Assembly: GCF_008329965.1 (NCBI RefSeq)
Contig: NZ_CP036150.1
Coordinates: 2,480,001-2,544,000, forward strand
Direction of reading: 5' to 3'
Source of the DNA: Oceanispirochaeta crateris
Lineage (GTDB): Bacteria > Spirochaetota > Spirochaetia > DSM-2461
Length of the DNA stretch: 64,000 bases
A program made the position numbers and the translations under genes. The notes under the pieces were generated by a model. The model was not told the DNA's origin, did no database searches, and saw only the letters and a list, made by a program, of their open reading frames with translations. This document shows, one piece after another, positions 12,729-18,356 of this stretch (its first letter is position 1; the number at the start of each line of letters is the position of its first letter).

Positions 12729-14258
12729 CTATCGTGCGTATTCAACGGCCCGTGTTTCGCGAATGATGGTGACCCGGATACGTCCGGGGTATTTCAATTC
12801 ATTTTCAATTTGCTTGGCAATATCTTTTGCCAAGATTTGAGCCTTTGAATCGTCAATTTTATCATTGTTTACCATGATTCGAAGTTCTCGTCCTGCTTGA
12901 ATAGCAAATACTTTTTCAACACCTTCAAAACTCATGGCAATCTTTTCAAGATTTTCCAACCGCTTGATATAGTTATCTAAAGTTTCACGTCTAGCACCAG
13001 GCCTTGCTGCCGAAATAGCATCCGCTACCTGCACAAGGATACCTTCTACAGAATTGATCTCTACATCGTTATGGTGAGCTGCCACGGCGTTCACAATACG
13101 GGGATCTTCATTCATACGCTTACAGAGTTCAGCACCCAGTTCCGCATGATTTACATCTCCATCTGTTTCAAGGCCCTTACCAATGTCATGGAGCAAAGCT
13201 CCCCTCTTGGCAATTTCAGCATCAGCACCAATTTCTGCGGCGATCATACCTGCAATAACGGCAACTTCCTTGGAATGGGACAGTACATTCTGCCCATAAC
13301 TAGTTCTGAAATGCAGTCTTCCCAATGCCCGAATACCTTCCGGTCTGACATTATGGATTCCCAAATCAAAGAGAACTTTTTCGCCCTCTTCATATATGGT
13401 CTGACTGATCTCCTTGGTGACCTTCTGAACGACTTCTTCAATCCTGGCAGGATGTATTCTTCCGTCAGCGATCAAACGTTCCAGCGCAATTTTCGCAATC
13501 ACTTTTCTGATTGGATCAAAACACGAAATCACCACCGCTTCTGGAGTATCATCAATGATAATATCCACACCGGTAAGTGTTTCCAAAGTTCTAATGTTAC
13601 GCCCTTCACGGCCAATTATCCGCCCTTTCATTTCATCATTGGGAAGACTAACGGAAGTAACAGTGATTTCTGTACTAACATCGGTAGCCAGCCTCTGAAT
13701 CGTTGTGACTATGACGTCACGGGCCTTCTTTTCTGCAGTGAGATTTGCTTCTTGTTCAATCTTATTAATCAGTGCCTGGGCATCATGTTTTGCCTCATTT
13801 TCCAGACTCTGTATGATTAATTTCTTCGCCTCGTCTTTGGTTAAACCTGAAATTCGTTCTAATTCAGTCTGCCAGCGGACTTCTTCCTCTGCGACTTTTT
13901 CTTCTCTATTGGCAAGAATCGCTTCTTGTTCATTAAGTAACGCTTGATTACGTTCAAGCATGGCAGTCTTGTTATCAAGATTATCTTCTTTCTGCTGCAC
14001 TCGTCTTTCATATTTCTGAACATCATTCCGTCTATCCCGGTTTTCTTTTTCCAGCTGACGACGTTCTTTCATTATCTGATTCTGTGCTTCCAGTAAGATA
14101 GATTTCTTTTCCTGTTCTGCCTCTTTAACTGCGTCCTGTTTTACTCTTAACGATTTCTGTTCTGAAGAAGAAAGTTGATATCTGGCATAAAGCCATCGTA
14201 TTGTCCAACCTATTACTATTCCAACGAGGGGAAGAGCTATCTTATATACAAGATCCAT
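12729..14258 (-). CDS. rny: Ribonuclease Y
   Basis: RNase Y is the membrane-bound endonuclease that starts mRNA decay. This 509-residue protein has the family architecture: one N-terminal membrane helix (about 5-24), a charged coiled coil (about 30-190), a KH domain with [10 protein letters not shown] (about 215), and an HD domain with the metal-binding HDIGKG motif (about 360). Length is typical (about 510-520). The ATG has an AGGGGG ribosome site, and a consensus promoter lies upstream. It is the first gene of rny-ymdB-tlyA. Confidence 0.96.
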
Positions 14259-14287: not shown

Positions 14288-14315
14288 ATTATATAAGTAA
14301 AGACCTATTTGTCAA
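14288..14315 (-). promoter_or_regulatory. Consensus sigma70 promoter of the rny operon
   Basis: On the minus strand, a perfect TTGACA (14315-14310) and a perfect TATAAT (14293-14288) are 16 bp apart. The expected start is near 14281, giving a leader of about 20 nt with an AGGGGG site before the rny ATG at 14258. Confidence 0.8.
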
Positions 14316-14376: not shown

Positions 14377-17300
14377 TCAGAACAGTTCATTCAAAAGAGA
14401 ATGGCTTGAATCCTTGTATCCTAGAAAGAGATAATCATATCCCTGATCACTGACCAATGGCATCAAAACCCAACAATTAAAGAGTCTAAAATCAACGTGG
14501 GCAAAGCTTCCATTTACAGAAGGATGTTCCTTATTCTTAATATAAACAATGGAGCCATCCTGGGTCAGCCGACTGAGAGTGTCTGAGATTTCAGTATCTG
14601 AAAGACTATCTACACCATCCTCATTTATACCAATGGAAAGAACGGGTTCAAGACCATCAGTATTTTTTTGCATGAGAATACCACTAAGCGCTTTATATTC
14701 ACGGGTTAAATCCCTTAAAGACTTGAGTAAACCGAGTGAGCCAGATCTATAGTGAGCTCTAAACCGGTCAAAATCTAAGCCATTGGCAGTCATTTCAATG
14801 CTGGAAACTTCATCTCGGATTGAAAAATCGTCTGAAACCGTATCATCATCTTCCATTTGGGGAAGGAGATCTTCTGCTAGATTTTGTACTAGGCTATCCA
14901 TACCCATCATAAAAGACTCGGCTGTAATTCTGCCTTCTTCAGACACGTCATCCTCAACAATGTGATGATCAGACTTATCTTCCAAATCAAACCCGGCTTT
15001 GCTTAAATATTCAGAAAAGTCAATTTTTACCAGCTCTTCGACTTCGTCCAGCTCGTCTAATTCTTCTAGCTCCTCGACTTCGTCCAGCTCTTCGACTTCA
15101 TCCAGCTCGTCTAATTCTTCTAGCTCCTCGACTTCGTCCAGCTCTTCGACTTCATCCAGCTCGTCTAATTCGTCCAGCTCGTCTATTTCATCCAGCTCGT
15201 CTATTTCTTCCAGCTCGTCTAATTCTTCTAGCTCTTCGACTTTACCCAGCTCTTCGACTCCGTCCAGCTCTTCTATTTGAGCATTTGCAATCTTATCCAG
15301 AGGGTTTTTATCATTTTTATCTTCATCGATCATATCATCATCCCCTCTCTGATGAGTTTCAAGGTCAGCAATCATAGTATTCGTATTCAAATTATGATTA
15401 TTCTGAGGCATGGAAACTCCGTAGTATTCTTTCGTATCGATCGTATCCAGTTCAATATTTTCATCATCATATAGATTCATGTCTTGAATCTCTTCGGTCA
15501 GAGCATTAAAGCCTTCTACAGAATCCACAAGATCAACGTTCTCCATCTCTTGCTTCTTAGTATTAATGCTCTCATGGTTGATGTGATACCCATCTGTTAA
15601 ATCCAGTCCAAAAAGGGACAGATTTTCATTAAGATTCAACTCAATTAAATCTTCTACCTGCTCTTCATCATCATAAGCAATTGGAAGTTTTTCGAGTTCT
15701 TCCGCATTCTCATCTTCAATTGGTAAAGCCTTTATTTCATCAACGACCTTCAGTTCTTCCAAAGCTGAATCTTTGTCTGAGGCTAAGGAATCTTCATTGA
15801 GGAATTTATTGTATCGTATTTCAAGTTTCCTAGATATTTTATCAACATCCATAGATTCGATGAGACCTCGCAGAACAAAGCTGCCTTTTACATCATCTAG
15901 ATCGATAAGGAAAGATTCATCCAAGTCAGTATTTTGTAATTCAACATCTGATGCTTCAATTTCATCCAGATCTTCCACACCATCTACATCATTGAAGTCA
16001 TCCAGCTCTTCAATTTCAACGGGTTTATCAAGAGATTCTCCGTCCTCTAGGTCCTCAACTTCGCCTAGCTCCTCCACATCATCGAAGTCATCAAGCTCTT
16101 CAACTTCAACGGCTTCACCAAGAGATTCACCGTCCTCTAGGTCTTCAACTTCGCCTAGCTCTTCTACATCATCGAAGTCATCAAGCTCTTCAACTTCAAC
16201 GGGTTCACCAAGAGATTCACCGTCCTCTAGATCTTCAACTTCGTCCAGCTCTTCTACATCATCGAAGTCATCCAGCTCTTCAACTTCAATGGGTTCACCA
16301 AGAGATTCACCGTCCTCTAGGTCTTCAACTTCGTCAAGCTCTTCTACATCATCGAAATCATCCAGCTCTTCAACTTCAACGGGTTCACCAAGAGATTCAC
16401 CGTCCTCTAGGTCTTCAACTTCGTCAAGCTCTTCCACATCATCGAAATCATCCAGCTCTTCAACTTCAACGCTTTGATTCTTATTTTTATAAGGCTGTGC
16501 AACATTTTGTCTAACGCTCTGAATATCTGCATTTTCAACGGTAAAGTGTGCATTGCTGAGGGCTGACTTGATCATTTTTTCAAGTTCACTGACTGTAAAC
16601 CGCGGCTCTTCTTTCTGTTCATCCTTCTTACTGACAAGAAATCTAATGATTTCATCCCAGCTTTTATCCAGGAGTGTATCGATCTCATCCTTTCTATTTT
16701 TTTTGAACTTATCAGAGAGGCTCTTCAGGATCTCTTTACGAACTTCATCCTTACGTGATTTCAGCTCAATTTCATATCGTTCCCAATTAAGCTCTTCTTC
16801 AGCTTCTAGTAAATCCCTCAGGAAAGTCATTTGAAATTTCTTAATTTTTTTCTTTAGAATAAGCTCTTGATTCTGCTTAATATTCAATATCAAGAAGGCT
16901 ATTAGGAACAGAGTTATAAACATGGATAAGAGCAAAAGAGCTCTGTATTCATTAGATAGAACCAAATCATCACCGGGAATGACTGAAAGAGAAATAGAAC
17001 CCTCTTCATCTACAAGCTGCAGTAAATAGAACTCTTTCCCTTCTCCATCCGCTAATTTCTGAATGAGGTCTGATTTTCCGGCCTGTCCTCGGAATTGGGT
17101 TATGCTATCTTTTAGAAGATTGTATTGATCATTGGTTAGATTATAAATGAGGATGTCCCGATCATGAATCTGAACTCTATTCACATCAGAGATTCCACCC
17201 TGATTGTATAGGAAATTCTGAAGACCATTTAATGAGAATTCCATAACCACTGTACCCTTAAACAGGGCATATTGATCAATAGCTGGGAAAGAATACAGAA

Positions 17301-17817
17301 TCCTGTTTTTATCTCTATCATAAACATAAGATGGTTCAGAATCTTTTGTTTCTATAAAATGAATGGGAGCCGAAGAATCTGAACTTTCCTTCCACAATTT
17401 ATATAGTATGCGAGAGTTATCTCTTTGTTTGATATCATCTTCATGTGTACTGTAAAGAATATTCAATTCTCTATCATCAATGATTCTTATATACTGAAAC
17501 CCGTATAATTCTTCAGACATTCTGCCAAACAAGTTAGCCCTGTCAATGATATCCTCACGACTTTGGCTGGGATCATAGACATTCTTCAAGTATGCTAAAT
17601 CAAGGATAGCACGAATTCTTTCAATATTTGAATCATGATATTTATTTATTAAACTGTTGTTCTGTTCAAGATGCGACTTTTGTCCCTCAATAACTCGCTG
17701 ACTAAAATACTGAGTTTCAATCTCTGAAAAAGCACCTGTAAAGGCAAAATAGCCTAAGGTGCTTATCAGAAGTAATGAGGAGGCTAAAGCTGTTAGAATC
17801 TTATAAATTAATCGCAT
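14377..17817 (-). CDS. Large membrane protein: sensor-like domain, acidic tandem repeats, GAF-like C-terminus
   Basis: I do not recognise this 1146-residue protein as a named family. It has a first membrane helix (about 7-27), an extracytoplasmic region of about 260 residues resembling Cache-type sensors (FQYIRIIDD, YSFPAIDQYALFKGTVVMEFS), and a second helix (about 292-313). A basic, helical cytoplasmic part (315-430) follows. Then come two very acidic blocks: five perfect-length 30-residue repeats plus a partial sixth (450-612), and an ELDEL/VEELDE low-complexity block (about 848-930). The C-terminal 130 residues look like a GAF-type domain (LRDLTREYKALSG, FLGYKDSS). It ends 118 bp before the rny gene and begins just after the rplQ terminators. 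A sensory or scaffolding role is inference. The start ATG lacks a strong ribosome site. Confidence 0.8.
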   Translation of the reverse strand: MRLIYKILTALASSLLLISTLGYFAFTGAFSEIETQYFSQRVIEGQKSHLEQNNSLINKYHDSNIERIRAILDLAYLKNVYDPSQSREDIIDRANLFGRMSEELYGFQYIRIIDDRELNILYSTHEDDIKQRDNSRILYKLWKESSDSSAPIHFIETKDSEPSYVYDRDKNRILYSFPAIDQYALFKGTVVMEFSLNGLQNFLYNQGGISDVNRVQIHDRDILIYNLTNDQYNLLKDSITQFRGQAGKSDLIQKLADGEGKEFYLLQLVDEEGSISLSVIPGDDLVLSNEYRALLLLSMFITLFLIAFLILNIKQNQELILKKKIKKFQMTFLRDLLEAEEELNWERYEIELKSRKDEVRKEILKSLSDKFKKNRKDEIDTLLDKSWDEIIRFLVSKKDEQKEEPRFTVSELEKMIKSALSNAHFTVENADIQSVRQNVAQPYKNKNQSVEVEELDDFDDVEELDEVEDLEDGESLGEPVEVEELDDFDDVEELDEVEDLEDGESLGEPIEVEELDDFDDVEELDEVEDLEDGESLGEPVEVEELDDFDDVEELGEVEDLEDGESLGEAVEVEELDDFDDVEELGEVEDLEDGESLDKPVEIEELDDFNDVDGVEDLDEIEASDVELQNTDLDESFLIDLDDVKGSFVLRGLIESMDVDKISRKLEIRYNKFLNEDSLASDKDSALEELKVVDEIKALPIEDENAEELEKLPIAYDDEEQVEDLIELNLNENLSLFGLDLTDGYHINHESINTKKQEMENVDLVDSVEGFNALTEEIQDMNLYDDENIELDTIDTKEYYGVSMPQNNHNLNTNTMIADLETHQRGDDDMIDEDKNDKNPLDKIANAQIEELDGVEELGKVEELEELDELEEIDELDEIDELDELDELDEVEELDEVEELEELDELDEVEELDEVEELEELDELDEVEELVKIDFSEYLSKAGFDLEDKSDHHIVEDDVSEEGRITAESFMMGMDSLVQNLAEDLLPQMEDDDTVSDDFSIRDEVSSIEMTANGLDFDRFRAHYRSGSLGLLKSLRDLTREYKALSGILMQKNTDGLEPVLSIGINEDGVDSLSDTEISDTLSRLTQDGSIVYIKNKEHPSVNGSFAHVDFRLFNCWVLMPLVSDQGYDYLFLGYKDSSHSLLNELF
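15027..15280 (-). repeat. Acidic low-complexity repeat block (includes a 54-bp tandem duplication)
   Basis: This stretch encodes about 85 residues composed of ELDEL, VEELDE and EELEEL units inside the large membrane protein. Within it an 18-codon (54-bp) unit occurs twice in tandem, nearly identical at the DNA level (about 15050-15157). The opposite strand is accordingly Ser-rich and open in another frame, which is an artefact. Confidence 0.85.
15985..16470 (-). repeat. 90-bp tandem repeats (5 full copies plus a partial copy)
   Basis: Units of exactly 90 bp run from 16470 down to 16021, followed by a truncated sixth copy. Each encodes 30 residues beginning VEVEELDDFDDVEEL and ending ESLGEP. 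Copies 1-3 are nearly identical. Copies 4 and 5 share a Gly substitution (VEELGE), and copy 6 degenerates. The near-identity of the DNA suggests recent expansion by slippage or unequal recombination. Confidence 0.95.
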
Positions 17818-17830
17818 TCAATTTTTTACC

Positions 17831-17877
17831 AAAAAAATAAGGAAGATATCACTCCCAATGGAGAGAAACCTTCCTTA
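17831..17877 (-). terminator. Intrinsic terminator of the alpha operon (distal)
   Basis: On the minus strand an 8-bp perfect stem (TAAGGAAG/CTTCCTTA, 17877-17870 with 17845-17838) encloses a smaller CTCC/GGGAG hairpin. It is followed by seven Ts (17837-17831). It lies about 100 bp after rplQ and 14 bp before the next minus-strand start codon, so it ends the ribosomal supercluster or attenuates entry into the next gene. Confidence 0.8.
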
Positions 17878-17975: not shown

Positions 17976-18356
17976 TTAGTCCTTTTCTACTTTACTTTCA
18001 GCTTTTTCAACAAGTTCAAGAAGAACCATTTCAGCTGCATCACCCTGCCTAAAACCCATTTTGAGGATTCTTGTATATCCACCAGGTCTTTCTGTGAACC
18101 GTGGCGCAATTTCAGTAAACAGTTTGTTCAAAACATCCTTATTGCTGATATTTTTTGCAATGATTCTACGGTTATGAACAGAGTCTTCCTTAGCTCGTGT
18201 AATCATTTTTTCAGCTGTTTTTCTGATTTCAAGTGCTTTCGTTTTAGTAGTCTGGATTCTCTCATGTTTAAAGAGAGAAGTGACCATGTTTCTACGAAGA
18301 GCTCTTCTATGACTGGCTTTACGGCCAAGCCTATTAAAACCTATTCGGTTATGCAT
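17976..18356 (-). CDS. rplQ: 50S ribosomal protein L17
   Basis: This 126-residue protein has the L17 N-terminus ([21 protein letters not shown]) and the [10 protein letters not shown] motif near the C-terminus. It surrounds the exit region of the 50S subunit. It is the last gene of the alpha operon, 2 bp after rpoA, the usual order rpoA-rplQ, and is followed by two terminator-like hairpins. Confidence 0.97.

Follow-up and report, generated by a model that had tools for sequence, protein, structure and literature searches.

The gene at positions 14377-17817 (minus strand) of the window, as we call the whole 64,000-nucleotide stretch of Oceanispirochaeta crateris DNA analysed here, is a single-copy member of a spirochaete-specific family, nearly all carriers of which also encode flagellin. 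In the list of open reading frames of the window the interval corresponds to exactly one frame, which encodes 1146 amino acids. We tentatively propose that the protein is a membrane sensor-scaffold linked to flagellar motility and equipped with a variable acidic tether, a reading that we prefer to the others considered below while holding it at somewhat less than even confidence. What had counted as a lone 'hypothetical protein' can thereby be placed in a conserved spirochaete family whose parts are defined and whose role can be tested.

Domain architecture and the acidic linker

The N-terminal part contains two transmembrane helices. The first (residues 3-26; 17740-17811, minus strand, as for all parts of the protein given below) is a helix in the predicted structure and hydrophobic in all relatives; the second (residues 289-312; 16882-16953) is indicated by the model as well as by the sequences of relatives. 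Between them, residues 30-291 (16945-17730) are predicted to form a dCache-type outside sensor domain. In this region the N-terminal model (pLDDT 79) aligns with dCache ligand-binding domains at Z scores of up to 12.8 (rmsd 4.4, 223 residues aligned), and Pfam dCache_1 matches seven of 25 relatives (best E 4.2e-9). A PDB search with the N-terminal profile returned only matches to acetylcholine-receptor transmembrane regions (E > 0.3), which were discarded as meaningless. The second helix is followed by a cytoplasmic segment (residues 316-402; 16612-16872) that is weakly modelled, helical and conserved, with Trp387 invariant in relatives. At the other end of the protein, residues 1008-1146 (14380-14796) are predicted to adopt a GAF fold: the C-terminal model (pLDDT 90.8) retrieved the GAF domain of Lcd1 in Foldseek (E 1.8e-4) and was superimposed on a GAF domain by VIA-align with Z 9.6 (rmsd 3.4, 113 residues aligned), and a PDB profile search matched the GAF domain of 3ci6 (E 0.002). 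At the sequence level the match to the GAF family is marginal (GAF_2, best E 0.024, in three of 24 relatives). Fold alone reveals neither ligand nor function, and ligand sensing by the dCache domain is putative. Searches of Pfam and NCBIfam yielded no model that names the protein and no MCP signalling, HisKA-HATPase, GGDEF or other enzyme output domain; with Pfam, the full-length protein gave no match. These results are in agreement with the sequence-only reading, which had described a membrane sensor-scaffold outside any named family, with a Cache-like outside domain and a GAF-like C-terminus.

Residues 426-1013 (14779-16542) constitute an acidic linker with a net charge of -206 and a hydrophobic-acidic-acidic period. 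TRF detected a 90-bp period at 15983-16471 (5.4 copies, 94% matches) and a 54-bp period at 15030-15275 (4.6 copies, 87% matches). Together with a comparison of the copies, this defines a first block of five near-identical 90-bp (30-aa) copies (residues 450-599; 16021-16470), which start at residues 450, 480, 510, 540 and 570 and share 100, 98.9, 94.4, 93.3 and 90.0% DNA identity with copy 1, respectively. A degenerate sixth copy (residues 600-629; 15931-16020) has 60% DNA and 37% amino acid identity, and a second block of the EELDEL/VEELDE type occupies residues 854-929 (15031-15258). Thus, both acidic tandem-repeat blocks, as well as the five repeats plus partial copy recognised earlier from the letters, are real. 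A plus-strand frame of 234 aa at 15773-16477 was rejected as the antisense of the repeats.

In all 25 relatives measured, the linker is 254-697 aa long and consists of 27-45% Asp/Glu and 3-9% Lys/Arg, with a pI of about 4.1. The repeat unit is specific for the lineage, comprising 30 aa in the window and 21, 33, 12 and 6 aa in L037, L051, L055 and L001, respectively, and even congeneric species differ in copy number. What relatives keep is the acidic composition, not the number or the sequence of the repeats. For 45 of 50 linkers, sequence identity peaks at a period divisible by three, and hydrophobic residues are autocorrelated at lag 3 (z up to 9) and depleted at lags 1, 2 and 4, so the unit of the linker is hydrophobic-acidic-acidic. 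The earlier expectation that repeats and linker length vary between genomes therefore holds, and it does so across genera. Since each lineage has its own repeat while charge and period, but not length and sequence, are kept, the five near-identical copies represent a recent expansion in O. crateris within a region that is kept acidic and periodic. The chain would stay unfolded, its charges holding the regularly spaced hydrophobic side chains in solvent, and may be suited to loose multivalent binding or tethering. Rapid repeat turnover at constant charge and three-residue period in dozens of lineages makes the linker a natural experiment.

Relatives that lack the GAF domain, i.e. Treponema-type and some other proteins, end in a 35-aa motif, (E/D)DGVFxI...(D/E)FKxLVDSVL. 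A model built from ten of these GAF-less ends only also matched upstream of the GAF domain in independent GAF-bearing relatives (L050, E 1.3e-12; L053, 2.5e-12; L093, 1.7e-11; L054, 1.2e-10; and further ones with E values as weak as 0.003). Among about 300 decoys, the top match had E 0.09. No other protein in 12 genomes carries the motif, and it was not found in the window's own family of genomes (f1). A second candidate motif just upstream of the GAF domain ('IDSLF...VELP') scored no better than decoys in the latter family and was dropped.

Distribution of the family and co-occurrence with flagellin

When the N-terminal 422 aa were searched against 61 related genomes, 41 of these proved to contain a single relative. 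Profile A1, built from 25 relatives, matched 205 of 395 Spirochaetia genomes, representing 95 of 133 genera, normally once per genome. One of these matches (L186 in G231) is false, being a regulator of the AraC type whose outside domain resembles dCache, and this leaves about 204 carriers; it is the only, and a weak, profile match in family f9 and comes from a non-flagellated genome. A match in a Ruminococcus MAG (L002), read as an RsmI-type methyltransferase, was dropped as a chance hit. In L053 (4586-4898; genome G055), an in-frame TAA splits the N-terminal domain of the relative, reflecting either a pseudogene or a sequencing error. Outside the class, an ORF scan of G395, G443 and G408 uncovered proteins that align with the profile over its entire length (positions 1-421 or 4-421; E 5e-20 to 6e-24) and in which acidic repeats of the EEIEEL/EDAEDL type come after the common N-terminal part. 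Two of these proteins continue to a GAF-like C-terminus as judged by eye, and in G408 the C-terminal domain was matched (E 4.6e-11) in a second frame beyond masked bases. Judging from these sequences, the family with the same layout reaches other classes of the phylum.

Of the 395 Spirochaetia genomes, 282 have flagellin, as do 202 of the 205 carriers, the exceptions being two MAGs (81% and 57% complete) and the false G231. The gene is absent from the flagellin-negative members of f3, f4, f9, f18, f12/g17 and f10, which are the families of the flagellin-negative genomes as far as listed. Within f10 the sole carrier (G197) is also the sole flagellated genome, and in f12 the three carriers are flagellated g53 genomes, while all seven g17 genomes lack both gene and flagellin. 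Two genes served as controls. The locus neighbour ymdB is kept in non-flagellated lineages that lack the gene, and is missing from T. pallidum-like and many Treponema-type genomes that have it. trpA, which is as common as the gene (210 of 395 genomes), occurs in 46 of 113 non-flagellated genomes and is represented in every one of these lineages. The odds ratio with flagellin is 93 for the gene as compared to 2.0 for trpA. Mapped on the ymdB gene tree, the loss of flagella took place about three times, and the well-supported branches leave only one independent pair; with so few independent losses, an ancestry-aware test cannot reach significance. Eighty flagellated genomes lack the gene, mostly Borrelia-like ones (f20) along with f7, f15, f21, f22 and incomplete MAGs, so the gene is not needed for flagella as such and the relation is one-way. 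The pattern suggests a swimming-linked role.

Locus and Treponema-type relatives

The gene is preceded by rplQ (17976-18356) and followed by rny (12729-14258), ymdB and tlyA, all on the minus strand; these names derive from reading the translations and, for ymdB, additionally from Pfam PF13277. The order rpoA-rplQ-gene-rny-ymdB-tlyA recurs in many genomes, and the usual place of the gene is between rplQ and rny. rplQ directly precedes the gene in 33 of the 49 loci read, and in the remaining 16, which include Treponema-type genomes and one locus cut by a contig end, the gene was not seen beside it. Many families have rplQ adjoining the gene and no rny there. Flagellar genes do not adjoin the gene. 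The sequence-only reading had proposed ribosomal or nucleic-acid-binding partners because of the location; this idea gains no support, given these 16 loci and a presence that tracks flagella and nothing ribosomal. A perfect 12/12 match to a sigma-70-type promoter (TTGACA-16-TATAAT; 14288-14315, minus strand) lies 30 bases upstream of rny, because of which transcription of rny probably needs no read-through from the ribosomal operon. Between rplQ and the gene, a weak hairpin that resembles a terminator and has a T run (17841-17856, minus strand), which is within chance expectation, could be an attenuator.

G099, which we identify as Treponema pallidum by gene order, carries a 679-aa relative at C1:645993 that adjoins a DUF2147-like signal-peptide gene and adk. 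Because the neighbouring TP0594 has been called a signal peptide protein (PMC12687308), the relative is, by our numbering, probably TP0593. A literature search under TP0593 or alternative tags returned no paper, and a search on Cache, acidic repeat and spirochaete matched only a T. pallidum typing paper. This copy has the shortest acidic stretch, with GAF domain and linker shrunken. In the Treponema-type relatives L055, L086, L091 and L084 the GAF domain is lost, and the genes adjoin RodZ-like, RimO-like or DacB-like genes. The ymdB gene (PF13277) is missing from G099 and many f25 (Treponema-type) genomes, and nearly all other Spirochaetia have it.

Proposed function, alternatives and known systems

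According to our preferred reading, the dCache domain would sense either a small molecule or how things stand in the periplasm, the compartment of the flagella, and the signal would cross the two transmembrane helices to the conserved cytoplasmic helical segment. The long unstructured tail, with a hydrophobic residue at every third position among Asp/Glu, may serve as a variable-length tether and bring a C-terminal effector (the GAF domain, the DGVFxI...FKxLVDSVL peptide or the two together) to a membrane-located partner. Slippage of the repeats would keep altering the tail while selection maintains charge and period. Of these elements, the architecture, the family, the behaviour of the linker, the motif and the joint occurrence with flagellin are observed here; sensing, tethering, binding of a partner and the part played in motility are inferred. 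Since it co-occurs with flagella and has persisted in the reduced, T. pallidum-like genome, the protein is a candidate motility sensor of spirochaetes that has so far gone unnoticed. A more far-reaching version, which we regard as doubtful, holds that it is a phylum-wide signalling protein that is tied to periplasmic-flagella motility and lacks an enzyme output, in which a charged tether of tunable length (net charge about -200, a hydrophobic 'sticker' in every three residues) carries a docking motif or a GAF domain to a partner. If true, spirochaetes, the syphilis agent included, would possess a new motility factor and a kind of sensor for which no counterpart is known. The parts are known folds, but as far as the libraries searched show, no description exists of their combination, of the acidic linker with its period of three, of the motif or of the association with flagella.

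Among the alternatives, the strongest, though in our view unlikely, is a general membrane scaffold or organiser of polarity or envelope, similar to MamJ, whose acidic tail gathers basic or cytoskeletal partners; the link to flagella would then reflect shared ancestry or lifestyle. Hypervariable acidic repeats between conserved ends have indeed been reported for the magnetosome chain protein MamJ, which has a central acidic repetitive domain with variable tandem repeats between functional ends (PMC3905215), and the small number of independent flagella losses as well as the RodZ-like neighbour in Treponema-type genomes would fit such a role. However, folded dCache and GAF domains point to sensing, and no complete non-flagellated genome carries the gene, while trpA and ymdB persist there. 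The dCache domain, typical of chemoreceptors, and the flagellated carriers are likewise compatible with a chemoreceptor-type protein, whose hidden or degenerate signalling segment (residues 316-402) contacts CheA/CheW arrays. This is improbable, as no MCP signalling match was obtained, the helical segment of about 90 residues is too short for a receptor hairpin and the gene is single-copy rather than part of a multi-copy family as is typical of receptors.

It is slightly less probable still that the acidic repeats are functionless products of neutral slippage between two functional domains. As would be expected in this case, each lineage has repeats of its own number, unit and sequence, and the T. 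pallidum-like copy has a reduced GAF domain and linker; throughout the phylum, however, the charge and the three-residue period survive the turnover. We give least credence to a regulator of RNase Y or of ribosome production, with basic ribosomal or RNA-binding proteins as the partners of its acidic tail. Although the recurrent gene order speaks for it, the gene lies away from rplQ in about a third of the loci read, many families keep rplQ next to the gene without rny, and rny has its own perfect promoter-like site. In addition, ymdB is kept where the gene is absent and lost in Treponema-type genomes that keep the gene.

Acidic tandem repeats in a spirochaete are also known from the acidic repeat protein Arp (TP0433) of Treponema pallidum. 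Unit and locus of TP0433 are different, however, and the T. pallidum-like member of the present family is another gene. Similarity to MamJ concerns the layout alone, i.e. variable acidic tandem repeats between functional ends, and we claim no sequence relation; the repeats of MamJ are of the Glu-Pro type, and it has neither the dCache nor the GAF domain present here. The last 139 residues of our protein are modelled with the fold of GAF domains such as those of Lcd1, NreA and PtsP (pLDDT about 91, Z about 9), but their sequence similarity is marginal, they are linked to no enzyme, and the domain has been lost in Treponema-type and some other relatives. Finally, the ligand-binding domains of the dCache receptors Tlp3, PctA and DctB have the same fold, likewise placed between two transmembrane helices (VIA-align Z 10-13 over about 200-229 residues). 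Whereas these receptors have an MCP, kinase or cyclase output, the present protein has an acidic tail and a GAF domain instead.
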